Numbered from the stretch's first letter, positions 4,681-28,717 are shown. The stretch is 32,960 nucleotides of DNA from Thermincola carboxydiphila (GCA_016841725.1 JAENYP010000010.1:1-32960); one strand, 5' to 3'. Notes: generated from the letters alone by a model not told the origin. Program-made: numbers and translations.

Positions 4681-5100
4681 TCATAAATCTAAATCACCGG
4701 CTGCCTCCGGCTGATAAAGAATACTTTCCACTCGCAGCTGAACCATGCCGCCCGGAACTTCCCAATCTATGACATTCCCCACACTGTAACCCAGGATAGC
4801 CGTCCCGATAGGCGCCATTACAGAGACTTTATCTTCCAGAAGCTCAGCATCAGCAGGATAAACCAGTGTATAAGTCATTTCCTCCCCAGATTCCAAATCC
4901 TTTAACACCACCTTGGAATTCATGGTAATTACATCAGGAGGAACCATTTTTGAATCCACCACTAATGCCCGGCTCAATTCTCTCTCAAGATTCTCCAGGT
5001 ATCCCTTATTGCCCGGAGTAAACTCTTTAACTTCATCAATAAGCTTCTGCAGTCTATTTTTGTCCACCTCAGTAATGAAAATTTGCCTGTTCACGTTCAC
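4681..5100 (-). CDS. Rnk-like / GreA-GreB C-terminal-domain factor
   Basis: 139 aa; GTG start at 5100 behind GGAGGGATGA. The C-terminal two thirds match the GreA/GreB C-domain and Rnk (regulator of nucleoside diphosphate kinase) fold: VVLKDLESGEEMTYTLVYP, then VSVMAPIGTAILGYSVG and VIDWEVPGG. The N-terminal ~50 residues are a short helical region rather than the long coiled coil of GreA, which favours Rnk. Such factors bind RNA polymerase in its secondary channel. It starts 14 nt after the preceding radical SAM gene and ends just before the terminator, so it is the last gene of that operon. Confidence 0.8.
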   Translation of the reverse strand: MNVNRQIFITEVDKNRLQKLIDEVKEFTPGNKGYLENLERELSRALVVDSKMVPPDVITMNSKVVLKDLESGEEMTYTLVYPADAELLEDKVSVMAPIGTAILGYSVGNVIDWEVPGGMVQLRVESILYQPEAAGDLDL

Positions 5101-5114
5101 TCATCCCTCCGAGT

Positions 5115-6482
5115 TCATTTATTTTGTTGCTGCTTTAACCTTTTGGTAAGCTCTCTCATATATGCCTTGGCTAAATCCTTAATGTGCTGTAGGTAATTTA
5201 TATCTAAATATTTTGATTTTTTGTTGCTTAATAACAGTATAATATAGAACTTGTAAAACTCATAATAAAACTGAAGTTTTCCCATACTGCCCGGTTCCGC
5301 CACCAAATGCAGGAAATCCCAGTGCTGCGGATTTTTCGTATTAATCCGCTGCTGATATTTTTCATACTGGGAGGTGCCGGGTAATGGAGTTAGAATAGCT
5401 GCCGTCGCGACCATTAATTGATGCTTTTTTACATAGTCCCTTAAGTTTTTAAAATCCTTTTTTGTGGCATCGATGTCTACGATGAACAGCCCGGTACATT
5501 CAATTTCATGCTTTCGTAAGATTTCCAGGCAGCGCTCATTGACTGCCTTAGAGGTCAATTTATGGTAATCAGATAAAATATCGTCATCAAAGGACTCCAA
5601 CCCCACCAGTACTACCTTTAAACCTGCCTCTTTCAAGGTAATAATAACTTCTTCGTTATCGGCAATAAAATCGGCGCGGTAATACAAGATAAAATTCTTC
5701 TTAATACCCTGCTGCAGAAGCAGCCGGGCAAACTCCTGCACCTTTTGCCGGTCTGTGTAAAAGGTATCATCTACAATCCAGATATTCTCACAATTGATGC
5801 CGGCAATTTCCTCAACCACCCTGGCCACATTACGGCAGACATACTCACCGTTATTTAACAGGCAGCAATAGCAGAAATTACACCTGTGTGGACAGCTATA
5901 TGCTGCCTTGACCACTGCACAGGGACTTAAATTTATGTATCTGAAGTGTTGCCGGTTGGCATAAAAGAAAGAGCGGTCCGGTATCGGCAGGTCATCCGGA
6001 TTAATATAACTGCGTTCATTGACTATCCAGGATGAATCTCCGGACCGGTAACAGATTCCTTTGATATCTCCCAGTTTTTTTCCCGAGACAGGAAGGGTTA
6101 TTATTTCCCGAAAAGGGACGATACCGCCGGAGTGTACGATAAAATCCACTGCCGGCACATAGAAATCATGATAATTCAGCTCAGCATGGACTCCGCCCAT
6201 AATCACCTGAACTGCGGGGTTGTGTTCTTTAGCCTGTTTTGCATATCCAATCATTACATCTCTGTGAGTAATATAACCTGTGACAGCCACAATATCCGGA
6301 TTATATTCCTTTAATACCTTATGAATACCGGTGCGCTGGATTACGGCATCATAAATCAGGCAGTCATGTCCTGCTTCTTTAGCTGCCGTATACAGGTACT
6401 CCAGTTCAAGGGGCTCCACATTGACTATATTAATATTGGCAAAGAGATTTTCATACCCTGGTCTGACCAATAATACCCTCAT
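5115..6482 (-). CDS. B12-binding-domain radical SAM protein (fourth of the operon)
   Basis: 455 aa. The N-terminal ~130 residues form a Rossmann-like cobalamin-binding-type domain (MRVLLVRPGY, NVEPLELEYLYTAAKEAGHD, IVAVTGYITH, IMGGVHAEL). The radical SAM core follows, with the cluster motif C197-x3-C201-x2-C204 (CPHRCNFC) and the downstream IVDDTFYTD and VLVGLESFDDD strands. A ~100-aa C-terminal helical tail ends in basic residues. Members of this class methylate or rearrange unactivated carbons using 5'-deoxyadenosyl radicals, often with methylcobalamin. It is a paralogue of the genes at 9087-10451 and 10514-11878 (454-455 aa, same opening). Its start lies 3 nt after the psd-like stop, so it is co-transcribed. 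Substrate unknown. Confidence 0.9.
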   Translation of the reverse strand: MRVLLVRPGYENLFANINIVNVEPLELEYLYTAAKEAGHDCLIYDAVIQRTGIHKVLKEYNPDIVAVTGYITHRDVMIGYAKQAKEHNPAVQVIMGGVHAELNYHDFYVPAVDFIVHSGGIVPFREIITLPVSGKKLGDIKGICYRSGDSSWIVNERSYINPDDLPIPDRSFFYANRQHFRYINLSPCAVVKAAYSCPHRCNFCYCCLLNNGEYVCRNVARVVEEIAGINCENIWIVDDTFYTDRQKVQEFARLLLQQGIKKNFILYYRADFIADNEEVIITLKEAGLKVVLVGLESFDDDILSDYHKLTSKAVNERCLEILRKHEIECTGLFIVDIDATKKDFKNLRDYVKKHQLMVATAAILTPLPGTSQYEKYQQRINTKNPQHWDFLHLVAEPGSMGKLQFYYEFYKFYIILLLSNKKSKYLDINYLQHIKDLAKAYMRELTKRLKQQQNK

Positions 6483-6485
6483 TGA

Positions 6486-7181
6486 CTATCCTTCCTCCCG
6501 GTAGTAGGCAATTATGCTTTCCCCTGCCTTAACCTTCCGGCCAACCTCAATGTTAAGAGTTAAGCCCGCAGCCATGGGGAGCAGCACATCAACCTGGGAA
6601 CCCATTTTAATCATCCCTAAGCGCTGCCCCTTGCTTACCCGGTCTTGTTCTTTTACCCAGCACTCAATCTTATTTACATATATATCAGCAATTTGAATGA
6701 CCAGCACCCTTAACCTGCCTCTAATGCCAATGATGTTCCTCTCATTGGAGAATAGGTGTCCGGCGTATTTTTCATATGGCTTCAGGCCTAAAACGGCTCG
6801 CCACCAGGTCAGGGTCATGGGAAGGTTTTTACCCTGCAGATAATCAATTTTCTCAATTTCCCCGGAGATGGGGGCCCGGTTTACATGAACACCGGTGGGG
6901 TGCATAAAAATGCCCACTAAATAACAGGGAGCCTGGAACTCCTGGGCTGCACAATATTCCTGCAAACTAATCTTTCTGCCCAGTTTAGTACAAAACAACA
7001 CTTCATCAGTGAGAACTTCTTTAATATATATGACTGTACCGTCTGCCGGAGAAACCAGGGCTGACTCATCCTGAGTAATTACCCGGTGAGGGTCCCGAAA
7101 AAAGTAAAAATATCGCCAGTAAACATAAGTTACCCCGAACACAGCCAGCAGTCCCGCCAATAATACCATGAATAATTCCAT
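6486..7181 (-). CDS. Phosphatidylserine decarboxylase-like proenzyme (short type)
   Basis: 231 aa from ATG 7181 (numbering below counts a preceding TTG codon at 7184 as 1). One N-terminal TM segment (about 5-25) is followed by SPADG (Asp48), FMHPTGVHVNRAP (His100) and the self-cleavage site MGS (Gly195-Ser196) inside GMIKMGSQVDVLLP. Cleavage there would give a beta chain and a short alpha chain with an N-terminal pyruvoyl group. This is the short bacterial/archaeal Psd form. In most relatives the HVNR segment is preceded by P-x-D; here it is P-T-G, a small departure that may reflect a different substrate. Its place between a FeeM-like acyltransferase and a radical SAM gene suggests decarboxylation of a seryl-type lipid or acyl intermediate. 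Housekeeping phosphatidylethanolamine synthesis is the alternative. Confidence 0.88.
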   Translation of the reverse strand: MELFMVLLAGLLAVFGVTYVYWRYFYFFRDPHRVITQDESALVSPADGTVIYIKEVLTDEVLFCTKLGRKISLQEYCAAQEFQAPCYLVGIFMHPTGVHVNRAPISGEIEKIDYLQGKNLPMTLTWWRAVLGLKPYEKYAGHLFSNERNIIGIRGRLRVLVIQIADIYVNKIECWVKEQDRVSKGQRLGMIKMGSQVDVLLPMAAGLTLNIEVGRKVKAGESIIAYYREEG

Positions 7182-7198
7182 CAAAAATTACCTCTGCT

Positions 7199-7720
7199 TT
7201 AACCTTTCATGCTTTTCATTAAACCTATTGAGTTAGGACTTTTCTGATTGTATAAGTCTACCGAATAATCATAGAAGGGTTCATCGAAAGTGGTAAACCC
7301 CAGGAACCGGTATAAGCGAACGGTTTCCAATAGTGATTCAATCACAAGATGAGTAAAACCTAAAGAACGGATAGTCTCCTCGAAGAAGGACAATCCTTTA
7401 CAGGTGATATTGAAATTGCGAAAGCCGGTTAAGCAGGCCAGCCGGGACACCTCTGCCAGTTTGACCTCATTACTTCTTAAAGGTGACAGGTCAATAAACT
7501 CCTCGATGGGGAGCCCCAGTTCTGCATCAGGAATGACCCTTAGTGCCGCGATTACCTCGGAGTCCTGAACAGCAATGAGATAATGGGCTATCTGGTCAAA
7601 CTGATCTATGGTCATCTGCCGATAATTCAGTTCATCCACAAACACCCGTTGAATGACTTGTCTGGCTTGGCGTTGTTCCGCAATTGTTTCTGCTGTCTTA
7701 AAGGTCAATTGCCGGGTCAC
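7199..7720 (-). CDS. FeeM-like N-acyltransferase (N-acyl amino acid synthase type, GNAT fold)
   Basis: 173 aa; GTG start at 7720 with GGGGTGAA just upstream. The pattern resembles the FeeM/LuxI-related group of N-acyl amino acid synthases and the exosortase-associated acyltransferases: an N-terminal RQVIQRVFVDELNY segment, a central VIAALRVIPD strand, EVSRLACLTGFR, and the closing LVIESLLETVRLYRFLGF. These enzymes take acyl chains from acyl carrier protein and put them on the amino group of an amino acid or amine. It lies 17 nt upstream of psd. The 129-nt gap before it is the largest within the operon. An ordinary GNAT acetyltransferase cannot be ruled out. Confidence 0.7.
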   Translation of the reverse strand: MTRQLTFKTAETIAEQRQARQVIQRVFVDELNYRQMTIDQFDQIAHYLIAVQDSEVIAALRVIPDAELGLPIEEFIDLSPLRSNEVKLAEVSRLACLTGFRNFNITCKGLSFFEETIRSLGFTHLVIESLLETVRLYRFLGFTTFDEPFYDYSVDLYNQKSPNSIGLMKSMKG

Positions 7721-7849
7721 TTTTGGTTCACCCCTTAGATTAGGTTAGCAGGTTCATCCTTTAGATTATGTTGGGCGGTATGCCCTTCCTGATGTCCTGC
7801 CGGTATTTCAGATTAACTAAAAAATAAAACAACTGCTGTATTGGGTTAG

Positions 7850-9082
7850 TCAGAAATTTCGGGTTAACAGCGTTCTCTTGATAATGGAGGTCCAGCTATA
7901 GACCCGGTTATAAAGTTCCCAGTAGGCTTTGGTTAACTGCTGTGGACTCATCCGGGCCGGAACATGGACAGCTTCCGTACCGTTATAAGAGTAGATATTT
8001 TCATTGCAAATCCGGCCCTCGCCGCGCAGCTGCTCAAATAAATCTGTACCTGGAATAGGTGTTAAAATATAAAACCGCGGGACAGAAATCTTATTGGCTG
8101 CGATGAAATGGGCAGTAGCTAAAATGCTTTCCACCGTATCGGCATCTGTGCCCACCACCATCTCAGTACTGACTTCAATACCGGCTTGGCGAATCCTTTG
8201 AATCTGGTCGGGATAATGCTGCACTTTGGCCCAGGCTTTATTCAGGCTGTCCAGGCTTTCCTGGCTGATGCTTTCCAGACCAAAGCTTAAGACCAGACAG
8301 CCGCTGTCTTTAAGAGCCTTTAACAAAACGGGATTATTGGCTGCCGTAATATCACACTGACTAAACCACTGCATCTTCAGTTTGGCGATTTCGCGCACCA
8401 GCTCCAGCATATACCCTTCATCTGAGACAATGTTGTCATCCAGAAGTAAAAACCTGTGATACCCTAAGGACTTAACATATTTAATATCCCGAATCACCTC
8501 CGGGATATTGCGTTTCAGGTACTTCCCCCGGTACAGGCAGTGAACTGAACAAAAGCTGCAGCTGCGGGGGCATCCCCTCCCGGCCTGAACAGGAAGAAAA
8601 TCGCCAATGGCTTTATCTGTCAGCAAATCATAGCGCGGCAGAGGTAAATTTTCTAAGGAATCCAGCTCAGCCCGGTAAGTTTTTTTTAGCTGCCCCGCTT
8701 CCCAGTCCAGGAGCAGTTCCCGCCAAACTCCCTCGGCATCACCGATGACCACAGCATCACAGTACTGACCGGCTTCCTCTGCCATCAAACTCACCATGTA
8801 CCCGCCCATAATGACGGTTTTGCCTCTGTTCCGGTACTCCTTAGCCAATTCAATGGCTCTGATCACACTGTGTCCCATGCTGCTGATGCCGATTACCTGG
8901 GCATCTGTTTCCAGGTCGACATCCTCAATGGTTTCCAAAGCCAATTCAATCTCCCAAGCCTCAGGTGTCAAGGCAGCCAGCAGTGGCAAGGCCAAACCCA
9001 CAAAATACAGTTTGCGTCTTTTAATCAAACTGCTGCTGCTGTCATAGGGAGTGGGTTGAATTAAGAGTAATTTTTTTTTCAT
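7850..9082 (-). CDS. B12-binding-domain radical SAM protein, divergent type (third in order)
   Basis: 410 aa. It has an N-terminal cobalamin-type domain (VIGISSMGHSVIRAIELAKE, IMGGYMVSLMAEEAG, VVIGDAEGVW), then the radical SAM motif C171-x3-C175-x2-C178 (CPRSCSFC), LLLDDNIVSD, LSFGLESISQESLD and VPRFYILTPIPGTDLFEQL near the end. It is shorter than the other three and differs in detail (GDAEGVW, SMGH), placing it in the BchE/HpnJ-like branch rather than with its neighbours. It starts 4 nt after the preceding radical SAM gene. This enzyme probably does chemistry different from the paralogous trio. Confidence 0.9.
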   Translation of the reverse strand: MKKKLLLIQPTPYDSSSSLIKRRKLYFVGLALPLLAALTPEAWEIELALETIEDVDLETDAQVIGISSMGHSVIRAIELAKEYRNRGKTVIMGGYMVSLMAEEAGQYCDAVVIGDAEGVWRELLLDWEAGQLKKTYRAELDSLENLPLPRYDLLTDKAIGDFLPVQAGRGCPRSCSFCSVHCLYRGKYLKRNIPEVIRDIKYVKSLGYHRFLLLDDNIVSDEGYMLELVREIAKLKMQWFSQCDITAANNPVLLKALKDSGCLVLSFGLESISQESLDSLNKAWAKVQHYPDQIQRIRQAGIEVSTEMVVGTDADTVESILATAHFIAANKISVPRFYILTPIPGTDLFEQLRGEGRICNENIYSYNGTEAVHVPARMSPQQLTKAYWELYNRVYSWTSIIKRTLLTRNF

Positions 9083-9086
9083 CTCA

Positions 9087-10451
9087 TTAGCCCTTTAACA
9101 TTAGTTTAGTATAGGTCCAACCAAATTTTAATGACCCTTTGAGCAAACGCACCATAGTCCTCCATCCGAATTTTCTTACTAAATAGGTCGAATTGTTCAG
9201 ACAGAGGTTTACATACAGGTTTGTCCGCATCACTTCCAGGTAATAACGTCTTAAACTCATCTGGCTTGGTCTGATGGATACAACCGAAAAACTCCACTGG
9301 TCATAGGCCTCCTTGGGAAACAGCAGCCTGTCCTGATACTGCCGGTAAAGCAGCCCGGCGGGAAATGGTGTCATTGGAGATAAGAAGGAAATCTCCGGCT
9401 TAAGCTGTTTTAAGCAGCGGCGAAATTCCCCGAAATCCTTTGCGCTCCAGTCAGGGTGCAGAATAAATGATGCCCAGCAATCAATCCCGGCCTCCTTTAA
9501 AATGCGGGCTGCCTCTAAATTCACCGCGACAGTTGACTGCTTTTGATAACTGGCCAGATCCTCATCGCGAAAAGATTCATAGCCAACCAGCACTGCCCTT
9601 AGGCCAATCTTACCCAGGCGCTGCATCAGCTCAGGCTGAGCGGCAATACTCCGGGCGCTGCCATAGCAGATGAAATTCTTCCTGATGCCCCTGGTTTCAA
9701 TGGCATCGCAAAAATCTTCCAACCGCCTGGGGTTATATAGAAAATTATTATCATAAAACATGATGCTGGGTTCCGCGATCCCGGCAATCTGGTCAATAAC
9801 CTCTGTCATGGGCCGGTCCTGTTCCACCGGTCCTTCAATTTTCCAGCGCAGGCAGAACTTACAGTGAGTGCTGCAGCCCATAGATGTCTGCATGATGGCA
9901 CAGGGCTTGTACCCGAAATAACTGTAATGCCGGCGGTATCCGGCAGTTGAGCTGCGCTCGGGAATTATATAGTCATTTATGCCCTTTGCTCCTGTGCCCA
10001 GATAATTGTCCCTGCGGCTGCGTACCCCCGCAATTGGCGGGATTTCCTCTCCCCGGCTTAAGGAGTCAAAGAATTCAAGCAGATTTTCTTTGGTGGTATA
10101 TTCAAAAATGTGATCAATATATTCGTTATAAAAACTTTCCGGGGCCAACAAGGCCTGTGTGCCGCCTGCCAGGGTGATGAATCCGGGATTAATTTTCTTT
10201 GCTGCTTTTGCCAATTCCAGTACGGCCAATACATCAATACAATAGGAAGTAAATCCGACAACATCGGGGCGAAAATCCTGCAGCTCTTTGGTGAATTCCT
10301 GCCCCTCTATCATCAGATCCAGAATCTTAACCTGACAGGTATCCTTCAGGACACTATAGACACACTCCAGACCGATGGGTTCCGCAAACATGAATTCTCC
10401 CAGAGTAATGGCCTGTTTTCTCCGCCCTGGCCGGACCAGTAAAACCCGCAT
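9087..10451 (-). CDS. B12-binding-domain radical SAM protein (second in order)
   Basis: 454 aa from ATG 10451. That start has AAAGGGGTG upstream, gives the MRVLLVRP opening shared with the paralogues and makes the length equal to theirs; a GTG at 10517 overlapping the previous stop only adds a charged 22-aa leader. Cobalamin-type N-domain (FAEPIGLECVYSVLKD, FITLAGGTQALLAPE), radical SAM motif C193-x3-C197-x2-C200 (CSTHCKFC), then IMFYDNNFLYNP and VLVGYESFRDEDL. The GGTQA sequence replaces the GGVHAE of the two sister proteins. The C-terminal ~90 residues are aromatic and basic (KFGWRTMVRLLKGSLKFGW), perhaps membrane-associating. Confidence 0.9.
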   Translation of the reverse strand: MRVLLVRPGRRKQAITLGEFMFAEPIGLECVYSVLKDTCQVKILDLMIEGQEFTKELQDFRPDVVGFTSYCIDVLAVLELAKAAKKINPGFITLAGGTQALLAPESFYNEYIDHIFEYTTKENLLEFFDSLSRGEEIPPIAGVRSRRDNYLGTGAKGINDYIIPERSSTAGYRRHYSYFGYKPCAIMQTSMGCSTHCKFCLRWKIEGPVEQDRPMTEVIDQIAGIAEPSIMFYDNNFLYNPRRLEDFCDAIETRGIRKNFICYGSARSIAAQPELMQRLGKIGLRAVLVGYESFRDEDLASYQKQSTVAVNLEAARILKEAGIDCWASFILHPDWSAKDFGEFRRCLKQLKPEISFLSPMTPFPAGLLYRQYQDRLLFPKEAYDQWSFSVVSIRPSQMSLRRYYLEVMRTNLYVNLCLNNSTYLVRKFGWRTMVRLLKGSLKFGWTYTKLMLKG

Positions 10452-10513
10452 CAAAACACCCCTTTCTTGATTGGCATCTCTTACTACCCCTTGCTTATTA
10501 CCCCTTGCCTGCT

Positions 10514-11878
10514 TCACTTTGCCTGCTGCCCTTTGATGATTTTCTGCAGATACTGCCAGGTTATTTTGGTTACTCCAAGAGATAGTTTCAGGTTTGGCCG
10601 CAGACCATAGCGTAAATTTTTAAAAAGACTCCCGGGACTGAGGGTTATTTTAAAGTAAACCCATAACATCTGCAGGTAATAACTGCGTACAGAAAGTGCG
10701 GTAGGTCTAACCACCAGGTTGGCCAGGTCCCACCTGGCATAATCAGTTGGGTCAATAAGCAGATCATTATATTGCCCCTCTAAAGCTGTACCCGGAAGGG
10801 GGGTTAGGGGCTGCAGGTTCACAAACTGCAGTTTGTTTTTGGACAGCCACCGGAAGAGACGGTCAAAATCCCGCTTATCCCAGTCCAGGCCCATAATCAT
10901 GGTAGCATAGCAGTCAACGTGATATTGCTCCAAAATGGCAATCGCCCGTTCGTTGATTTCCACACTGCTCTGCTTATTATACTGTGCCAATTCGGTGCTG
11001 TCAGGTGACTCGATACCCACGATAACAGCCCGCAGCCCAACTTGAGCAAATTTAGCCACAGTTTCCTCATGTTCAGCAATAAAATCAGCCCGTCCATAGA
11101 TGAGAAACCTTTTATCCAAACGGTGTTTTTGCAGTAATTCACAAAATCTCTCTACCCTGATGGGGTCAACCAGGAAATTATCATCAACAATATAGATCTC
11201 CCGCTCTTTAATCAGGAGAAGCTCTGCAATAACCTCCTCCAGGTCCCGCACATAATAGCTCCCCCCGGTGATTTCTCTGCAAAAACAAAAATTACAGCTA
11301 AAGGGACACCCATAGGAAGTCTTCAGCAGAGCACAGGGTTGGTGATACATATAGTAATACTGACCACGATACCTGGCAGTGATGGTCCGGTCAGGAAATA
11401 CCATTGGAAGGTCCCTGTTATCAGCCGGAACCTTCGGCTGACCTTCACTTAGAACACCCGGCAGACTTACCCGGGAGCCTGCTTCCAATTCTCCAATTAG
11501 CAGACTGAAATTTGCTAAGCCTTTAGCATAGACCACATAATCGATGTTTTCATCAGAAAAATCCTCCGGCACTACCTCGGCATGAACCCCTCCCGCCACT
11601 ACAGTAATGGCGGTATCAAACTGTTTGACTGCTTTGGCATATTCTTTGACAACCGGTACGTGTGATATATATGCTGTTACAGCAACCACATCAGGCCGGT
11701 ATCTGACCAGGAAATGCTCTAATGAATTCTTCTCCAGAATCATATCCACTAATTCAACCTGATGGCGCTCTTTAATAGCTGCGGCCAGATATTCCAGTTC
11801 CAAAGGCTCACAGACCATGATACTCTGGAGACCAATGGTATCCGGGTGAGGTTTGGGTCTAACCAGTAATACCTTCAT
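10514..11878 (-). CDS. B12-binding-domain radical SAM protein (first in order)
   Basis: 454 aa. Cobalamin-type N-domain (MKVLLVRPKP, CEPLELEYLAAAIKE, VVAVTAYISH, VVAGGVHAEVVPEDF), radical SAM cluster motif C191-x3-C195-x2-C198 (CPFSCNFC), IYIVDDNFLVDP and VIVGIESPDSTEL. Closest in the window to the protein at 5115-6482. The start codon lies within the 3' end of the methyltransferase gene (20-nt overlap), and the stop overlaps a GTG of the next reading frame, so translation is tightly coupled. The C-terminal LSVRSYYLQMLWVYFKITL segment is shared with the sister proteins. Confidence 0.92.
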   Translation of the reverse strand: MKVLLVRPKPHPDTIGLQSIMVCEPLELEYLAAAIKERHQVELVDMILEKNSLEHFLVRYRPDVVAVTAYISHVPVVKEYAKAVKQFDTAITVVAGGVHAEVVPEDFSDENIDYVVYAKGLANFSLLIGELEAGSRVSLPGVLSEGQPKVPADNRDLPMVFPDRTITARYRGQYYYMYHQPCALLKTSYGCPFSCNFCFCREITGGSYYVRDLEEVIAELLLIKEREIYIVDDNFLVDPIRVERFCELLQKHRLDKRFLIYGRADFIAEHEETVAKFAQVGLRAVIVGIESPDSTELAQYNKQSSVEINERAIAILEQYHVDCYATMIMGLDWDKRDFDRLFRWLSKNKLQFVNLQPLTPLPGTALEGQYNDLLIDPTDYARWDLANLVVRPTALSVRSYYLQMLWVYFKITLSPGSLFKNLRYGLRPNLKLSLGVTKITWQYLQKIIKGQQAK

Positions 11879-12533
11879 GAGGCACCCGCTTTCTGGAAAT
11901 AGTCAATATCAGACTGGGGATGAGGCTGTAGACCGGGACCCTGACCTGGGTGATTAATTCCGCTCCGGATATAGCTGCTAACTCCCTCATCCCGGCCTTT
12001 GATGGATAATTCCCAGGCCCTGTAGTTGCCTTCACTAAACTCATCATCACCCGGTCATAGAAACTGTTCACTGAAGCATTAACCAAAAACAATAACCCGC
12101 CCGGTCTGAGGACACGGTAAAATTCCTGAACTGCCAGTGGCTGGTTATGGTAATAGGGTAACGAATGACAACAGGTGACCAGGTCAAAAGAGGCGTCATC
12201 AAAAGGCAGTTGATGAGCATCACCCGGATAAAATTGGGCAGTCAAGCCTTTATCCCTGGCTTGCTCAATCATCTTCACAGAGGCATCAATTCCGCTGCAG
12301 ATGATAGCTTCAGGAGTAAATGCGTCAATTAGCCCGGCAATTAACTGACCACTGCCGCACCCAACATCCAGATGCCGCACCGGCCTCCCCACCGGGGCTT
12401 TGTGAATCCCCAGCAAACCCTCCAACTCCTTGATAACCAGCTTCCTGGTCGGTCCAAGAGAATAGGTCTGCACCCAGAGGCGGTCATAGTATTTGGCCCA
12501 AAAATCCCATATCCTGCTCATCATATACCTCAT
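11859..12533 (-). CDS. Class I SAM-dependent methyltransferase (UbiE/Methyltransf_11 type)
   Basis: 224 aa. Motif I VGCGSGQ follows HLD at about residues 55-64; then SGIDASVKMIEQA (acidic ribose-binding loop), GDAHQLPFDDASFDLVTCCH (motif II/III) and LRPGGLLFLV (post-II). A complete Rossmann methyltransferase of the small-molecule kind. The start may be 12533 or the ATG at 12521, which has GAGG 6 nt upstream. Lies 6 nt downstream of the FemAB-like gene and overlaps the first radical SAM gene. Probable role: methyl transfer to O, N or a quinone/lipid-like carbon in the same pathway. Confidence 0.9.
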   Translation of the reverse strand: MRYMMSRIWDFWAKYYDRLWVQTYSLGPTRKLVIKELEGLLGIHKAPVGRPVRHLDVGCGSGQLIAGLIDAFTPEAIICSGIDASVKMIEQARDKGLTAQFYPGDAHQLPFDDASFDLVTCCHSLPYYHNQPLAVQEFYRVLRPGGLLFLVNASVNSFYDRVMMSLVKATTGPGNYPSKAGMRELAAISGAELITQVRVPVYSLIPSLILTISRKRVPHEGITG

Positions 12534-12539
12534 ATTTTA

Positions 12540-13550
12540 TTAATTCTCTGTATTCTGCCCCCCGGTTTTGAACACCCGGTACGGCGCTGACGGCGCCCGG
12601 TAACTGAGCGCCCCCAGGACACGATTGGCAGCCCAATTGATGATGGGGTTGGAATGGCCGATGTACATTGCAAAATCAAATAGCTGGGCTCCCAATTTCA
12701 GTTTAGTCTCTTCTGCCGTCTGCCCGAAATCAATAACGGCATAGCTGTTTGCAATTCCGAAACGAAGTATTTCCAGTAAAAGATTATAATAGATATCAAA
12801 TTGGTGGTTTAACTGATAATCAAAGCCGGTAAATAAAAACACCAATTCATCATCATTTTCTACTATGACGCTAAAGCCAAGCAATTGTTCCTTATATGTG
12901 GCTCTAATCAACCTGGCTTTAGGGGTTAAGCTTCTGAAAAAGTCGATAGACAGCTTCTCCAATTTGACGGTGGATCTGGTATAAACCGCTTCATAAAGCA
13001 GATACATGTTTTGATTAAACTCCGCCGGCGGCAGTATGTCCACCTGAACCCCATGCCACTTCCTGACAGCCTTGTTAGTCCGGCAGCGATAGCTGCTGCG
13101 CATAGCCTGAAGATACTCCTCAAAACTGCTCCATTTTAGCTGCAGGCGGCAGGTCGGCAAGGTCTTACCCGCTTTGCCCGGTAGTTTCTGAGAACAATTC
13201 AGAATCAGTTTTGCTCCCTTGCGGCTTTGAAAGTGCTGCCATAATTCATTTTCGCAGCCCGCAGCAGCGCTAAAGCCCGGTTTAGCCACCGAGCAGGGAA
13301 TCCCCATAATTCTAAGTGGAATCTTATGACTAACCAGGCTATAGGTAAATATATCCAGCTTTAATGTATAGTCAACATAGACAGCCTTTGGCCGGCACAC
13401 ATGATCTTCCAGCCGGTGATACGCCTGGCTGCAGGGATTAACTCTTTCCAGGTGGTAGAGAAAATCCCTGGTTAAAAAGATGTTGCTGCCAGCCAGTTCA
13501 TCCCAGTCTTTAGGGACTTGGTCAATTTTGTCATAAGTGATCCACTTCAT
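12540..13550 (-). CDS. FemAB/BioF2-like GNAT-fold acyltransferase
   Basis: 336 aa from ATG 13550, which follows GGAG by 7 nt; codons from 13568 onward belong to the remnant of the preceding gene. Two GNAT-like halves: the second contains SSYRCRTNKAVRK, LIRATYKEQLLGFSVIV, a DIYYNLLLEILRFGI helix and IDFGQTAEETKLKLGA, the closing signature of BioF2/FemAB-like proteins (PF13480). Relatives add amino acids or acyl groups to cell-wall, polysaccharide or lipid precursors. First gene of the radical SAM operon. Its expression probably comes from the SigH-like promoter at 13671-13700, reading through the decayed GNAT gene. Confidence 0.8.
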   Translation of the reverse strand: MKWITYDKIDQVPKDWDELAGSNIFLTRDFLYHLERVNPCSQAYHRLEDHVCRPKAVYVDYTLKLDIFTYSLVSHKIPLRIMGIPCSVAKPGFSAAAGCENELWQHFQSRKGAKLILNCSQKLPGKAGKTLPTCRLQLKWSSFEEYLQAMRSSYRCRTNKAVRKWHGVQVDILPPAEFNQNMYLLYEAVYTRSTVKLEKLSIDFFRSLTPKARLIRATYKEQLLGFSVIVENDDELVFLFTGFDYQLNHQFDIYYNLLLEILRFGIANSYAVIDFGQTAEETKLKLGAQLFDFAMYIGHSNPIINWAANRVLGALSYRAPSAPYRVFKTGGQNTEN

Positions 13551-13551
13551 C

Positions 13552-13662
13552 CTAAAGCTCCGTTTCATAGCCTAATACCACTTTAGCTTATTCCACTGCC
13601 TTCTGCATCATCAGATCCACTGCCGGTTCCTTATGTTCAATAGCTTCAAATTTTAAATTCAT
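13552..13662 (-). pseudogene. Internally deleted remnant of a GNAT gene paralogous to 14839-15927
   Basis: From ATG 13662 a 37-codon frame reads MNLK, then FEAIEHKEPAVDLMMQKAVE, a TAA stop (13590), then AKVVLGYETEL and TAG. Each block has a counterpart in the intact protein encoded at 14839-15927: MILK at its start, FEACEHQGPAVDLMLQKAKE at residues 85-104 and FETEL at its C-terminus. Two large deletions have removed the rest. The promoter region upstream and the FemAB start downstream are also shared, so this is a true decayed duplicate. Confidence 0.88.
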
Positions 13663-13670
13663 AATGTAGT

Positions 13671-13700
13671 AAATTCGACTTATTATAACAATAGTCCTCC
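13671..13700 (-). promoter_or_regulatory. SigH-like promoter, operon copy
   Basis: Minus strand: GGAGGACTA (13700-13692), 12-nt spacer, GTCGAATTT (13679-13671). The -10 box fits the Spo0H consensus RnnGAATww exactly, and the -35 box fits RnAGGAwww with one mismatch. The remnant ATG (13662) lies only 8 nt downstream of the -10 box. Present almost unchanged before the intact GNAT gene (15934-15963). Confidence 0.6.
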
Positions 13701-13798
13701 AAATTATGAGGTCATCCTTTATTCTCCAGCTTTACACTAACCTTGTTTTTAATATACATTTCTGTATCCAAGCCCAGGAAAAGAAAAGTATAATAAAA

Positions 13799-13828
13799 CA
13801 GGCAAGCCGGATTTAATCGGATTGCCTG
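13799..13828 (-). terminator. Terminator downstream of the 14078 membrane gene
   Basis: CAGGCAA (13799-13805) pairs with TTGCCTG (13822-13828), with an inner CCG/CGG; TTTTATTATA follows on the minus strand. Nearly the same hairpin ends the cytochrome gene at 18267-18294. The 182-bp repeat copy B lies between this terminator and the gene. Confidence 0.6.
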
Positions 13829-13842
13829 TTACATTTTATTTT

Positions 13843-14024
13843 TTATTAAGGAAATTACCGTTTTGCAGGGTTGTGGATAATTTCCTTAATAATGGGGGTT
13901 ATAGGGGGTATGCCCCCTATTCTCCGGGGGTAACAGGAGCGAAGCGACGTCATAGGGGGCTGGCCCCCTTTGAACAAGAAAATTGACATCGAAGATAAAT
14001 TTGACGAAGTCAATTTTCTTGTTT
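13843..14024 (-). repeat. 182-bp palindromic element, copy B
   Basis: Exact reverse complement of 4460-4641, without a single difference in 182 bp. The two copies enclose the complete radical SAM operon together with its terminator and promoter. The identity suggests recent spread or ongoing gene conversion; homologous recombination between them would invert the 9.2-kb interior. Confidence 0.9.
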
Positions 14025-14077
14025 GCTAATACATAGTCATATTAAACTTGAAGTCTGTTAAAGAAGTCCTTCTATTC

Positions 14078-14698
14078 TTAATCTTCCTCAATAGATTTCA
14101 CTATCCTAAACGAAGTCACTTTCAGTTTCTTGGCAGGTTTAGGGGTTATTTTGAACACCCTTTTGTTACGGTCTGTTGATGGCAAACTAACCTTGTCCCT
14201 TGTGGATTGCCGAAAGCCGATATTCTCTGTTAATTCGTTTATAGGTACTCCGAACCTTCCAATAATTAAAGCCGATACTGTCAAATATACAAGATGGGCA
14301 CCATAAAATAAAACTGATGACAGCAAGTCAGGGTTATTCCCGGAAGCTACGCCTAAAGCACGAAACAACATACCAACTCCTACTATCCAACCAAGAGTGG
14401 TAACTGCAAAACTTTTCAACCAAAAGTATCGCCACCCCGTTATATCAAGGATTGTCACAAATGCTAAAGCATGAAGTCCTCCCATTCCGAAACTCATTAA
14501 GTTTCCGAATATAAAGCCTAATATTGTATGGATTTGCTTCGGGCGAACAAATAATTCTACGGCAGCTTCAGGCATAACTATTGTTAGTGGATAAAAGCTC
14601 TTGGAAATATACCCAAATGTATTGGCAACTGCCGCCGAAACAGTTCCCGATAAAAGTACTAAAATTACCCGGTCACTTATTCTAAATTTATTGTTCAT
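14078..14698 (-). CDS. Unknown integral membrane protein
   Basis: 206 aa from ATG 14698, with AAAAGGGTGA about 8 nt upstream (a GTG at 14710 is the longer alternative). Four to five hydrophobic spans: about 10-30, 55-75, 75-90, 95-115 and 130-155. A hydrophilic, lysine-rich C-terminal tail of ~55 residues (TPKPAKKLKVTSF) probably faces the cytoplasm. No family recognised. It sits alone between the two halves of a duplicated GNAT-FemAB pair and next to a repeat copy, as if inserted there. Confidence 0.75.
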   Translation of the reverse strand: MNNKFRISDRVILVLLSGTVSAAVANTFGYISKSFYPLTIVMPEAAVELFVRPKQIHTILGFIFGNLMSFGMGGLHALAFVTILDITGWRYFWLKSFAVTTLGWIVGVGMLFRALGVASGNNPDLLSSVLFYGAHLVYLTVSALIIGRFGVPINELTENIGFRQSTRDKVSLPSTDRNKRVFKITPKPAKKLKVTSFRIVKSIEED

Positions 14699-14795
14699 TA
14701 ATGAATTCACCCTTTTTATTGTTTTGTCCCCAACCCATAAAGTGTCCTGCTAAAAATTTTTTGTCCCACCAATTCTTACTCCATTCCATAATTCT

Positions 14796-14837
14796 TTAAT
14801 AAAATTCCCCGAATTTACAAATAGAATTCAATTTCAT
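14796..14837 (-). pseudogene. Start fragment of a second FemAB-like gene
   Basis: Immediately after the stop of the intact GNAT gene comes the same junction as before the FemAB gene: ACGGAGCTTTAGGATGAA. The frame opened by this ATG (14837) reads MKLNSICKFGEFY and stops at 14796. The shared stop, ribosome site and start context show that a FemAB homologue once followed the GNAT here. Only the first ~13 codons remain, with drifted sequence. Confidence 0.65.
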
Positions 14838-16511: not shown

Positions 16512-18146
16512 TTATCTTTCAGTTTGAGCCGCCACTAAACTTATGGCCCCGTATTTTTCCCTTAACCGCGGTTTTTCAATCTTGCCGGTGGGATTACGCG
16601 GGACTTCATCAAAAATGATTTTCCGCGGACGTTTATAGCGCGGCATGGGAGCGCAGAATGTCTGTATTTCTTCTTCAGTGCATCTGCAGCCCGGTTTTAG
16701 TTCTATGATAGCTGCCGCTATTTCCCCCAGACGCTGATCAGGCAAGCCAATGACTGCTACATCCTTAATTGCATTATGAGCGCGGAGAAAATCTTCAATT
16801 TGTACCGGATATAAGTTCTCTCCACCGCTGATAATTACATCTTTTTTCCGGTCAACCAAATATATAAAACCGTCTTCATCCATCCGGGCCATATCTCCGG
16901 TAAATAACCAGCCATCCTTGATTGCTGCCGCGGTCTCTTCCGGGTCGTTGTAGTAGCATTTCATCACACCCGGTCCCCTGACAACCAATTCTCCAACCTG
17001 TCCCTGGGTTACAGTGCATCCATTCTCATCGGTAATCTTGACTTCCCAATTGTGGCCCGGTATCCCGATAGCGCCGACTTTATGAATATTCTCAACACCT
17101 AAATGGACACATCCGGGGCCGATAGATTCGCTCAGGCCGTAGTTGGTATCATAAAGATGGTCAGAAAAATACTTTTTCCAGCGATGTATTAGGCTGGGTG
17201 GAACCGGCTGGGCACCGATATGCATGAGTCTCCACTGGGAAAGGTGATAATCTTCCAGTTTTACATCTCCACTTTCAATGGCATCTAATATGTCCTGGGC
17301 CCAGGGAACCAAAAGCCAGACAATGGTAATTCTTTCTTCAGAAACTGTTTTAAGTATCCATTCAGGCTTAACTCCGCGAAGTAATACGGCTTTGCTCCCT
17401 GACAGCAAACTGCCGAACCAGTGCATCTTGGCGCCGGTATGATAAAGCGGCGGAATACACAAAAAATTATCTTCATGCTTTTGACCGTGGTGTTTACTTT
17501 CCGTATAACATGCTGACATCAGACTTAGGTGTGTATGTAAAATTGCTTTTGGAAATCCCGTAGTCCCTGAGGAGAAATATACTGCCGCATCATCTTCATC
17601 CGTAAGTTCAATATGCGGGGCTTCAGAGGAACAATTGGCAGTAAGGCGATCATAGTTTTCAGCAAAAGTTGGACGGTTTTCTCCCGCAAAGAAGAGTGTC
17701 TTCACTTTAGGTATCTGATCATAAATCGCTTCCACCCGGCCGATAAATTCAGGCCCGAAAATCAAGACAATGGTTTCGGATAAATCTAAACAATATTTTA
17801 TTTCATCAGCCGTATAGCGAAAATTTAATGGCACTGCGATAGCGCCGGTTTTTAATATTCCAAAATAAATCGGCAGCCACTCCAGGCAATTCATTAAAAG
17901 AACAGCTACCTTATCCCCTTTTTTTATACCCCTCTTCAGCAGTAGATTGGCCATTCGATTTGCTTTCTCGTCAAAAACACGCCAGGTCATTTCCCGCCGG
18001 TATTCACCAGCCGGGTTGTTTTCAATCAATTCATACTCACGCCAGGTGACATTATGACTTTCCTGGAGATCCAAATTAATCTCAGTCAGGCATATTTCCT
18101 GTCCATACATTGCGGCATTACGTGCTAGTATTTCTGTGATAGGCAT
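16512..18146 (-). CDS. AMP-forming acyl-CoA synthetase (fatty-acid/aryl-CoA ligase family)
   Basis: 544 aa from ATG 18146 behind GGGAGG; 18170 is a weaker upstream alternative. ANL-superfamily motifs in order: the P-loop-like YFSSGTTGFPKA near residue 180, YGLSESIG, FTGDMARMDEDGFIYLVDR, the hinge KKDVIISGGENLYP, and the C-terminal catalytic lysine in RNPTGKIEK. It activates a carboxylic acid through an acyl-adenylate to the CoA thioester. The close match to medium/long-chain ligases suggests a fatty or aromatic acid, but specificity cannot be read. Monocistronic. Confidence 0.93.
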   Translation of the reverse strand: MPITEILARNAAMYGQEICLTEINLDLQESHNVTWREYELIENNPAGEYRREMTWRVFDEKANRMANLLLKRGIKKGDKVAVLLMNCLEWLPIYFGILKTGAIAVPLNFRYTADEIKYCLDLSETIVLIFGPEFIGRVEAIYDQIPKVKTLFFAGENRPTFAENYDRLTANCSSEAPHIELTDEDDAAVYFSSGTTGFPKAILHTHLSLMSACYTESKHHGQKHEDNFLCIPPLYHTGAKMHWFGSLLSGSKAVLLRGVKPEWILKTVSEERITIVWLLVPWAQDILDAIESGDVKLEDYHLSQWRLMHIGAQPVPPSLIHRWKKYFSDHLYDTNYGLSESIGPGCVHLGVENIHKVGAIGIPGHNWEVKITDENGCTVTQGQVGELVVRGPGVMKCYYNDPEETAAAIKDGWLFTGDMARMDEDGFIYLVDRKKDVIISGGENLYPVQIEDFLRAHNAIKDVAVIGLPDQRLGEIAAAIIELKPGCRCTEEEIQTFCAPMPRYKRPRKIIFDEVPRNPTGKIEKPRLREKYGAISLVAAQTER

Positions 18147-18266
18147 TTCTCTATCCTCCCGTTCTACCAATACAAAAAAAGATAGTATATATTTACTCCA
18201 TTCTAAATTATAAAACGTTACAAGCTGTTAATCAACTACAATGCCTTGAATTTATTAAAATTAAAA

Positions 18267-18301: not shown

Positions 18302-19390
18302 TTATTTTGCCAGATCTGGAAATGCCTTCTCGACCAGATCAACATATGCAGGATTTTTAATTTCAATCTCTTTAGTCGCCGGATCATCACCCATATCTTC
18401 ATACTTCATAGCTCCGAAGCTGTGATCAGCAGTAATATGGCCATGGGGGTCTGTTGGATTTTTCCACATTAGCTTCTCCAAATCAAAATCGGTCCCTTCA
18501 TGACAGGTCGCACAAACATCCTCAGCGCTGTCTTTTTGCAGCAGCTGACCATTGGCATTTGCCTTATGGGAAGTGTGACAACTCATACAACCGGCAAGCT
18601 TTTCACTTTGCGCATGTTTGCTGGCAAACCAGTTGCGTGTTCCATAGTGGTTATTTGCAATCAAAGTTCCCTTATCATCTTTCTCCGGGTCAGATCTGTG
18701 ACATCCAAGACAGGTCTCTGTATCAGGCAAATCACTTTCCGCCGATGCCTTAATGGAGCCCTTCTTCTTCTCTGGCGCTGCATCTACGTGATTGCTGCCA
18801 GGCCCATGGCACGATTCACAGGAAACTCCCTGGGTCGGTGATTCAGTCAAAACTCCGGGTGCATGGCACTTGGCGCAGCTTGTTCCGTCTGCAGCCTGCC
18901 AATCCTCTTTGCCATCTTTGTCCACATCTACAGATTTGGCAGCTTGCAGATCATATTTATCCCCGTTTTTAACAAGCTTGGCAACCCGGTATATCTTGGC
19001 TTTGAAATCAGGGACTTCTGCCAACAGATATTCATTCACCATGACACCGTAAAGTTTTGCTTTAGATAAATTTAATTCAGTAGGTTTTGTGTTGTCCGGG
19101 TCTGCTCCGTCAAACAGTGTAACCGTTGGCAACTCGCCGGTCAGCTCATAATCAGAAATGGGCTTCAATGCTTCTGAGTGTTTCGTTGCCTGAAACTCCG
19201 TGATTACATTGCCATGGCAGGATTTACAGGCATCGTCACCAACATATGTGGCCTTTGCTTCCGTTTTTGGAGCTGCTTTTTCATTATCCTCTTTTTTGGT
19301 ATCATTTTGATTTGTTTCACACCCGGCCAAAGCAAAGACAAGCATCAATAGCAGCCCTGCACTTAAAATGAAATGCCAAAATTTTTTCAT
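18302..19390 (-). CDS. Hexaheme c-type cytochrome lipoprotein
   Basis: 362 aa. Signal peptide with lipobox LAGC (Cys24), so it is anchored to the outer face of the membrane. Six CxxCH haem sites: Cys55, 172, 191, 227, 268 and 293, each with its His. A ~110-aa stretch without haem (60-170) separates the first from the other five. The closing arrangement (CESCHGPGSNHVD, HYGTRNWFASKHA, CMSCHTSH) resembles cytochrome c554/NrfA-related multihaem electron-transfer proteins. Likely carries electrons between the membrane pool and an extracytoplasmic acceptor. The upstream region (19391-19627) is a divergent promoter space shared with the yyaL gene. Confidence 0.9.
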   Translation of the reverse strand: MKKFWHFILSAGLLLMLVFALAGCETNQNDTKKEDNEKAAPKTEAKATYVGDDACKSCHGNVITEFQATKHSEALKPISDYELTGELPTVTLFDGADPDNTKPTELNLSKAKLYGVMVNEYLLAEVPDFKAKIYRVAKLVKNGDKYDLQAAKSVDVDKDGKEDWQAADGTSCAKCHAPGVLTESPTQGVSCESCHGPGSNHVDAAPEKKKGSIKASAESDLPDTETCLGCHRSDPEKDDKGTLIANNHYGTRNWFASKHAQSEKLAGCMSCHTSHKANANGQLLQKDSAEDVCATCHEGTDFDLEKLMWKNPTDPHGHITADHSFGAMKYEDMGDDPATKEIEIKNPAYVDLVEKAFPDLAK

Positions 19391-26498: not shown

Positions 26499-27281
26499 AT
26501 GCTCAATGAAATCACAATTCTTCCCGGCACAGACAAACTAGACGTCAGGGAAAACTTCGTTGAGATCACACTAAGGGCAGGAGAAACCGTATCTATTGTC
26601 GGCCCCACAGGAAGCGGGAAAACCGCTTTTATTACTGATATTGAGCTGCTGGCCCAGGGGGATACCTCAACAGGCCGAACTATTCTTGTTAACGGAAATA
26701 ACCCAACAGATGACATCAGATATAACCCCTCACTTAAGCCCATTGCTATGATTACCCAGAACACCAAATGCTTTGCAGATCTCACCACAGAAGAGTTCCT
26801 GGAGATTCATGCCCGCGCCCGTTGTATTAATGATAATGGCGTAATTGCGGAAACTATTAAATTAGCCAATAGTTTCACAGGTGAAAAAATCCATAAGGAC
26901 AACAAGGTAACCATTCTATCCGGAGGACAGACCAGGTCCCTCCTAATCGCAGATGCAATTATGATTGGGGCAGCTCCTATTATACTCCTTGATGAAATTG
27001 AAAATGCCGGTATCTTCAAACAAGAGGTTATTGACATAATTAAAGGCACCGGGAAAATAATTGTATTCGTAACTCACGACCCGGTGATCGCACTTCTGAC
27101 CAAGATGCGGATTATAATCGAAAACGGAGCTGTAAAAAAGGTACTGCATCAAAATGAAGTGGAAATCATGGCTGCCCAGAACCTTCTGGAAATAGACCGC
27201 AGGGTGGGCAGCATCAGGGAGCAGCTCCGGGCAGGAGATGTAATCACCAATGATGTATTTGCCGTAAATTTCGCTTCCTGA
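26499..27281 (+). CDS. ABC-type ATPase, stand-alone
   Basis: 260 aa; ATG behind GAGAGGAGAG. One ABC nucleotide-binding domain: Walker A GPTGSGKT (about 35-42), Q-loop in MITQNTK, signature LSGGQ (about 139), Walker B IILLDEIENAG, and the H-loop in VTHDP. The sequence between Q-loop and signature and the C-terminal ~40 residues are unlike transport ATPases, and no permease gene is near. Followed by a GTPase and an Fe-S protein in the same direction. It recalls soluble ABC proteins used in enzyme activation (for example the methanogen component A2 or SufC types). Role inferred only from company. Confidence 0.85.
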   Translation: MLNEITILPGTDKLDVRENFVEITLRAGETVSIVGPTGSGKTAFITDIELLAQGDTSTGRTILVNGNNPTDDIRYNPSLKPIAMITQNTKCFADLTTEEFLEIHARARCINDNGVIAETIKLANSFTGEKIHKDNKVTILSGGQTRSLLIADAIMIGAAPIILLDEIENAGIFKQEVIDIIKGTGKIIVFVTHDPVIALLTKMRIIIENGAVKKVLHQNEVEIMAAQNLLEIDRRVGSIREQLRAGDVITNDVFAVNFAS

Positions 27282-27342
27282 AGAGATATTTATCTGAATT
27301 GAGACAGATGTTTACTCTAACAAAAAAGGCGGTGAATGTTTT

Positions 27343-28053
27343 TTGAAGCTTTTGGTTATTGCCGGCCCCCCCTCCGCAGGCAAGACCGCACTTACTAAAC
27401 AAATTGTAAAGCACTTTAACAACGAACTGCGGATAGCTTTTCTTAAAATTGATGTTGTCAGGGCTTATGAGGATATTGAGTTAAACAAGGAATTCAATAT
27501 CTTGACCAAAAAAATATACTCAGGCGACCTCTGCCCTGACCACGCCGGAGTTATGGTTCTCGGTGATGCCGTAGAATGGGCTGAGAGTAATGGGGCAGAC
27601 CTATTTATAGTAGAAAGTGCCGGGCTTTGCCTGCGCTGCTCACCATACCTTAACCAGGGACTGGGGGTAATTGTATTAAGTTCAATCTCGGGGATTCATG
27701 CCCCGGAAAAAATGGGTGCCATGGTCAGCCTTGCCGATATAGCTGTAGTGACAAAAATCGACCTGGTGAGCCAGGCAGAAAGAGAGGTCCTTATTCAGAA
27801 AATCAAGGAAGTCCACCGCAAGATTGTATTAATGGAAACCAATGCCCTGCAGGGGACATCCCTGAACCGGTTATATAATCTGATCAGCAGCTCCGCAGAT
27901 ATTGACAAAAATAATCTTTACCTGAAGGGTAATCCTCCCCTCGGCACCTGCACAATCTGTGTCGGCAAAAAAGAAATTGGCTGGAAGCACCATTTTGGTG
28001 TAATTCAGAAGCTTGACGGCTGCATCGCAGATTACCTGTATAGGGGTGAGTAG
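27343..28053 (+). CDS. HypB/CobW-like GTPase
   Basis: 236 aa; TTG start at 27343 with GGCGGTG upstream, which places the Walker A motif GPPSAGKTALT near the N-terminus as in the family. Further G-motifs: VESAGLCLRC (a switch-II position carrying two Cys) and TKIDLVSQ (NKxD variant). Near the C-terminus CTICVGKK gives a CxxC pair. SIMIBI-class GTPases of this kind (HypB, UreG, CobW, MeaB, CooC relatives) deliver metals or cofactors. It starts 61 nt after the ABC gene and ends 1 nt before the Fe-S gene. Confidence 0.82.
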   Translation: MKLLVIAGPPSAGKTALTKQIVKHFNNELRIAFLKIDVVRAYEDIELNKEFNILTKKIYSGDLCPDHAGVMVLGDAVEWAESNGADLFIVESAGLCLRCSPYLNQGLGVIVLSSISGIHAPEKMGAMVSLADIAVVTKIDLVSQAEREVLIQKIKEVHRKIVLMETNALQGTSLNRLYNLISSSADIDKNNLYLKGNPPLGTCTICVGKKEIGWKHHFGVIQKLDGCIADYLYRGE

Positions 28054-28054
28054 A

Positions 28055-28717
28055 ATGAATGCCATAAGTGCCTGGCTGCCCCCCGGAAAAAACTGCGGTT
28101 TATGCGGCGAAGACAGCTGTAAAAGCTTTTTAAGAATGATAAATTCTTCCCAGAAAAATTATTCGGACTGCCCCTACTATAACGAACTGCAAAGGCCTGC
28201 AAGTCCCGGGGATTTAACCGGAATAGAAATTAAGGCCATTTATCCACAGAGGGATGTACTGGGGCATGAATACGACTTTGTTCTTGAACCGCTTCCAGGC
28301 GAGGTCTCAGCCAGAAAAATTATTCTCCCTTTCCGGCCCGATATGGTGGAAAAAATGGACATCAAAAAGGGGGATTACGTCCTGGGCCGGCCCATGGGCG
28401 CCGGCTGCCCCATCCCGCATGTACTGCAGGTAATTGAGGCCGAACAAGTCACCGGGCTCCTGTACACCTGGGTTATCGGCCCAAAATACTCCCGGGAACA
28501 TGAGATCAAAGATGTAATCGCTTACCACATGATAGGATTTGAAGGTATTGCCGCACACATCAGAAAAGAACCTGAATTCGGCTGCCGGGTAACCTTCCTG
28601 CCAGGTTTTTGCATGATGTCCCTTAACCATACAGGACTCGTCAACATGGTTCTGGAGAAAAGCTGTGGACTACATTTGCGGTTGGAAGATATCCGGATTC
28701 TGGCGGGAAAAGAATAA
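28055..28717 (+). CDS. [4Fe-4S] protein with N-terminal CxxC-x4-C-x16-C domain
   Basis: 220 aa from ATG 28055; the upstream ATG at 28013 lies inside the GTPase gene and is not needed. The N-terminal motif Cys14-x2-Cys17-x4-Cys22-x16-Cys39 is the 4Fe-4S domain (PF04060) known from the corrinoid iron-sulphur protein and from RnfB-like proteins. The remaining 180 residues (GHEYDFVLEPLPGEVSARK, GRPMGAGCPIPHVLQVIEAE, VIGPKYSREHEIKDVIAYHM) form a beta-rich domain that I cannot name. With the ABC ATPase and GTPase it forms a probable three-gene operon ended by a terminator. Confidence 0.82.
   Translation: MNAISAWLPPGKNCGLCGEDSCKSFLRMINSSQKNYSDCPYYNELQRPASPGDLTGIEIKAIYPQRDVLGHEYDFVLEPLPGEVSARKIILPFRPDMVEKMDIKKGDYVLGRPMGAGCPIPHVLQVIEAEQVTGLLYTWVIGPKYSREHEIKDVIAYHMIGFEGIAAHIRKEPEFGCRVTFLPGFCMMSLNHTGLVNMVLEKSCGLHLRLEDIRILAGKE

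Follow-up and report, generated by a model that had tools for sequence, protein, structure and literature searches.

We describe a conserved gene cluster with several cobalamin-type (B12-type) radical SAM enzymes in a stretch of 32,960 nucleotides from Thermincola carboxydiphila, hereafter the window. Very probably, its enzymes first make a small molecule or lipid with an amide linkage, which the B12-type radical enzymes then modify. Reactions at carbon catalysed by cobalamin radical SAM enzymes rank among the hardest known, and only a small number of the pathways that use them have been characterised. Curated families and the open literature (subscription journals and preprints lay outside this scope) gave no description of the gene set, and its linkage is kept over many genera and several phyla. 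The claim of one new pathway, made in an earlier sequence-only reading, thus holds for a cluster that is undescribed and conserved, while the argument for a lipid is weakened.

That reading had taken eight tightly spaced minus-strand genes as an operon. All eight are present at 5115-13568, overlapping or 3-14 bp apart, with a wider gap at 7721-7849 that results from a 1-bp deletion relative to a congener (G002). They are transcribed in the order FemAB-like (also termed FemX-like here), methyltransferase (MT), rSAM-B, rSAM-C, rSAM-D, FeeM-like, Psd-like and rSAM-A, followed by an rnk-like gene (Table 1). Pfam backs every assigned gene name among the eight, including Psd, FeeM, methyltransferase and FemAB-like. 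The borders of the operon did not stand, as a near-universal tandem-GNAT gene had been missed; this gene is a member of the cluster. The rnk-like gene is present as reported and lies directly downstream of rSAM-A in G002 as well; at locus L020 no rnk match was found directly downstream of rSAM-A. It is probably a mere neighbour. Two gene starts need adjustment: judging from the junction sequence, the FemX-like gene probably starts near 13550 (ATG AAG TGG) and not at 13568, and the true start of rSAM-C is probably internal, at Met23. The window genes compared with G002 have most of their differences at third codon positions and are therefore coding sequences under constraint.

Table 1. Features of the cluster and its surroundings in the window
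Feature	Position	Strand	Remarks
Tandem-GNAT acyltransferase, 362 aa	14839-15927	-	first gene of the cluster; PF00583
Insertion between GNAT and FemAB-like	13574-14832		missing in congener G002
FemAB/FemX-like amide-bond-forming transferase	12540-13553 (called to 13568)	-	PF13480 (Acetyltransf_6)
Class I SAM methyltransferase (MT)	11859-12533	-	PF08241; mostly directly upstream of rSAM-B
rSAM-B, cobalamin-type radical SAM enzyme	10514-11878	-	core; PF02310+PF04055
rSAM-C, cobalamin-type radical SAM enzyme	9087-10517	-	PF02310+PF04055
rSAM-D, cobalamin-type radical SAM enzyme	7850-9082	-	core; PF02310+PF04055
FeeM-like acyltransferase	7199-7720	-	accessory; PF21926/PF13444
Psd-like pyruvoyl decarboxylase	6486-7184	-	accessory; PF02666
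rSAM-A, cobalamin-type radical SAM enzyme	5115-6482	-	PF02310+PF04055; behind Psd in the window's lineage
rnk-like gene (GreA/GreB C-terminal domain)	4681-5100	-	NF004396 above cut-off

The proposal of four B12-type radical SAM enzymes is confirmed. All four proteins match both the B12-binding domain and the radical SAM domain above curated cut-offs, the weakest B12-binding score being that of rSAM-D (36.0 against a cut-off of 32.1 bits). The CX3CX2C motif is found in 123 of 123 radical SAM sequences from the clusters, and in a tree of these sequences each type corresponds to one side of a branch, with support of 96 for B, 100 for C, 100 for D and 62 for A. For rSAM-A, rSAM-B and rSAM-C the best NCBIfam models, aligned nearly full length, are HpnR (hopanoid C-3 methylase) and BchE (Mg-protoporphyrin ester cyclase), yet the scores are far under the cut-offs (175, 174 and 150 bits against an equivalog cut-off of 650 for HpnR; 92-142 bits against 481 for BchE) and rule out both identities. 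By profile, rSAM-B is related to CysS, AprD4, TokK and OxsB, and rSAM-D to AprD4, MiaB and CysS. Some B12-type radical SAM proteins work without methylation.

We scanned an alignment of rSAM-D against 84,980 species genomes and obtained 80 loci, mostly in Clostridia and also in Kiritimatiellota, Lentisphaerota, Gastranaerophilales and Spirochaetales. Of these loci, 47 span 19 kb or more; among them rSAM-B is present in all 47, GNAT in 44, the FemX-like gene in 43, rSAM-A in 40, MT in 25, rSAM-C in 22, and FeeM and Psd each in a single locus. The set of tandem GNAT, FemX-like, rSAM-B and rSAM-D occurs together in 42 of the 47, and we define it as the core, to which rSAM-A, rSAM-C and the class I methyltransferase are frequent extras. 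Because these loci were chosen via rSAM-D, we performed a second test without it, using a profile of the FemX-like protein on 398 genomes of the phylum; all 7 strong matches lie within the same cluster. The earlier reading's own test, that the genes stay linked in related genomes, thus supports a single pathway. The four core proteins also co-evolve over 57 loci, with r of 0.81-0.95 compared to a maximum of 0.15 on label permutation (pair tested).

All seven families are present in loci from Kiritimatiellia (L023), Lentisphaerales (L085) and Gastranaerophilales (L064 and L086), and a Spirochaetales locus (L087) has the four-gene core. Some carriers outside Bacillota are metagenome bins and could be misassigned. 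The distribution is patchy, since one of the three genomes of the window's own genus is without the cluster. A cluster with two to about six cobalamin radical SAM enzymes is kept together in Lachnospiraceae of the gut and rumen, in clostridia of soil and sediment and in several other phyla, which suggests that anaerobes make a product not yet recognised. Among the carriers are several named isolates (Acetoanaerobium, Clostridium tunisiense, Anaerovirgula, Alkaliphilus and Sedimentibacter), in which the product can be sought directly. Candidatus Electrothrix carries rSAM-B/D pairs with no GNAT or FemAB-like gene nearby; in one of them the two genes are separated by an MmeI-type restriction-modification gene (L071:6472-9207). 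These pairs were excluded from the core claim.

The composition of the cluster varies. The MT type consists of GNAT, FemX-like, rSAM-A, MT, rSAM-B, rSAM-D and rSAM-C in varying order. The main Lachnospiraceae type has an AMP-ligase, a carrier protein with a GL[NS]SFD site, GNAT, FemX-like, rSAM-B, two or three rSAM-A-like genes and rSAM-D, and the minimal type has the four core genes, in several loci with an AMP-ligase. The AMP-ligase adjoins GNAT in 17 loci, 13 of which also have the carrier protein there, and is never found in one locus with MT (39 loci). This exclusion is only suggestive of functional replacement because the pattern largely tracks lineage. Beside some clusters stand a PLP decarboxylase (L033, L064 and L086) or an EamA/DMT-type exporter (adjoining in L002, L043 and L072, 208 bp off in L041).

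The acyl-CoA ligase at 16512-18170 of the window might have corresponded to the AMP-ligase of Lachnospiraceae, but we rejected this match: a cold-shock-like ORF lies in the gap to GNAT, the protein scores as an ordinary long-chain ligase, and the Lachnospiraceae-type ligase beside GNAT was found in no MT-type locus. An apparent NRPS link in an Alkaliphilus bin (L029) proved to be a single locus of fatty-acyl-AMP-ligase/ketosynthase PKS genes (L029:11665-21215), which begin 357 bp downstream of the cluster.

The GNAT gene adjoins the FemX-like gene in nearly all related loci. The AF2 model of the GNAT protein (pLDDT 95) has as its nearest folds other tandem GNATs, such as glucosamine N-acetyltransferase and a tandem GNAT of the clavulanate pathway (TM ~0.6). 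The closest solved structures to the FemX-like model (pLDDT 94) are the aminoacyl-tRNA-dependent peptide synthases Sbb17/Sba18 (streptothricin type) and FemX, of the double-GNAT FemX fold, with Foldseek E values of 2e-11 to Sbb17 and 8e-11 to FemX and TM of 0.5-0.6; identity to these proteins is only 10-15%. Overall the fold matches of the two models are moderate (TM ~0.6, 14-16% identity). Tandem GNATs and FemX folds also serve in sugar acetylation or cell-wall building. The FemX-like protein had no match to PDB sequences at E <=1, and in NCBIfam the window GNAT and FemX-like proteins had no match and other members only scattered weak ones. The FemX-type fold class occurs in several antibiotic pathways (review PMC12945691).

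The FeeM-like and Psd-like genes had been proposed as defining partners, a role that the survey takes from them: both occur only in the window, the congener G002 and two of the 80 scanned loci (L020 and L021), and they are an accessory add-on. The add-on, FeeM-Psd-rSAM-A, is found in the window, G002 and L020, and the L021 contig ends inside Psd. The FeeM-like protein passes the Pfam FeeM model (PF21926) with 43.1 bits against a cut-off of 27 and shares this domain with the FeeM N-acyl amino acid synthase, but its gene is only accessory here. A direct scan of genome contigs with the FeeM-like protein as query gave no match, and neither this protein nor the Psd-like one matched a PDB sequence. 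The Psd-like protein matches PF02666 with 155 bits and shares with phosphatidylserine decarboxylase the SPADG, HPTxVHVNRxP and LGS-type motifs, which hold the catalytic Asp/His and the self-cleavage site in an alignment with the genome's other Psd (on contig C10). It differs in scoring below the cut-off of the best NCBIfam equivalog model (155 against 183 bits) and in two insertions that are common to L020 and missing in the other Psd. These conserved insertions, together with the separate genomic paralog, suggest that the Psd-like enzyme has another substrate.

From the gene set, its linkage, the domains and the predicted folds we infer donors, an order of steps and a product. We lean towards reading the locus as a biosynthetic cluster whose product is a secondary metabolite or specialised lipid with an amide link. 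In it the two GNAT-fold enzymes would join acyl and aminoacyl groups into an amide scaffold. An acyl-CoA or acyl-ACP would donate the acyl group, since the Lachnospiraceae versions bear their own AMP-ligase and carrier protein, and the aminoacyl donor may be an aminoacyl-tRNA, given the fold of the FemX-like model. rSAM-B and rSAM-D would act on unactivated carbons to bring about the core changes (C-methylation, C-C bonds or rings), to which rSAM-A and rSAM-C would add further carbon modifications, and MT would methylate O or N. In the window's lineage, the FeeM-like transferase could attach one more acyl group, and the Psd, having taken on a new function, could decarboxylate a carboxylate, leaving an amine; the PLP decarboxylase may fill a similar place beside some other clusters. 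Against this pathway, exporters and decarboxylases adjoin only few loci. We judge the chances about even that the clusters define a new and widespread class of natural products or lipids from anaerobes. In these, two to six cobalamin radical SAM enzymes would rework several unactivated carbons of an amide scaffold made by two GNAT-fold transferases, with at least two activation strategies (methyltransferase versus AMP-ligase/carrier protein).

One alternative is that the cluster makes a membrane lipid, either a sphingolipid-like amide or a phosphatidyl-amine, with the chain methylated or joined by the radical SAM enzymes. The weak resemblance of rSAM-A, rSAM-B and rSAM-C to HpnR is in line with this, as are the FeeM-like and Psd-like genes of the window; the rarity of these two genes elsewhere means that an unusual lipid cannot rest on them. 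In Lachnospiraceae the fatty-acyl-type AMP-ligase, carrier protein and GNAT, which keep the lipid reading open, resemble the genes of Caulobacter ceramide synthesis, with the acyl-ACP synthetase AasR, AcpR and an N-acyltransferase (PMC11324152). The bacterial ceramide pathway (Spt, AcpR, AasR, CerS and CerR) likewise unites an acyltransferase-type protein with an AMP-ligase and a carrier protein dedicated to it, but the clusters have several radical SAM enzymes and no serine palmitoyltransferase (alpha-oxoamine synthase) was seen among the window genes scanned with Pfam or the listed adjacent genes read by eye. The amino-acid/metabolite-type exporters beside several clusters also argue against a membrane lipid, and presence in 7 of 398 genomes is unlike a structural lipid. 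We consider it rather unlikely. The unusual lipid or N-acyl amine modified at sp3 carbons that was proposed from the sequence remains compatible with the core, having lost the support of FeeM and Psd, and a small molecule that is aminoacylated and exported fits about equally well. Secretion of a metabolite is favoured by the exporters, by the aminoacyl-tRNA-type fold and by the patchy distribution.

Such a metabolite could also be a modified amino acid or dipeptide that has no fatty acyl chain, for which the FemX-like enzyme would add an amino acid from tRNA, the GNAT would acetylate, and the radical SAM enzymes would yield a C-methylated or cyclised non-proteinogenic residue. The nearest folds of the FemX-like protein, which are natural-product aminoacyl-tRNA-dependent synthases (PMC12945691 for the fold class), the nearby exporters and PLP decarboxylases and the core-only clusters with no carrier protein are consistent with this. 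The AMP-ligases adjoining GNAT score best against menE/fatty-acyl-type ligases and not amino-acid adenylation domains, which speaks against it, and we regard this product as distinctly unlikely. Several B12-type radical SAM families act on peptides, and RiPP and P-methylase models are among the weak NCBIfam matches. Modification of a ribosomal peptide or protein is nevertheless very improbable, as no recurrent family of small precursor peptides was found among clustered neighbours of at least 70 aa and the carrier protein is the sole recurrent small ORF beside the cluster.

The copy of the cluster in the window departs from that of G002 in two places. While GNAT runs straight into the FemX-like gene in G002 with nothing intervening, an insertion of ~1.26 kb, flanked by a duplicated 21-bp junction, parts them in the window. 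The insertion is outside the pathway; it contains an ORF at 14078-14710 with no Pfam match. It also holds a GNAT-coding-like scrap near 13600 and, at ~13890-13970, G and C runs that are apparently stem-forming. The 1-bp deletion, at ~7853 in a CC run (7850-7860), removes the C-terminal 30 residues of rSAM-D, which has 438-441 residues in G002 and most other homologs. The deletion may be a mutation or a sequencing error and the insertion may likewise be real or an assembly error. Together they suggest that this copy of the cluster may be impaired.

Further genes of the window deserve mention. Consecutive plus-strand genes at 26499-28717 encode an ABC-type ATPase, a CobW/HypB-like GTPase and an Fe-S protein (PF04060), and are a possible corrinoid or metallocluster helper set. 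The trio is 48-53% identical to three genes at L031:6700-8794, which in a Lachnospiraceae bin lie between rSAM-C and rSAM-D of the cluster; no other fetched locus has such a trio. A multihaem cytochrome-like protein with paired CXXCH motifs and cytochrome C554/c7 matches is encoded near the cluster at 18302-19390, and the same genome encodes an S-layer-homology protein at 1432-2451.
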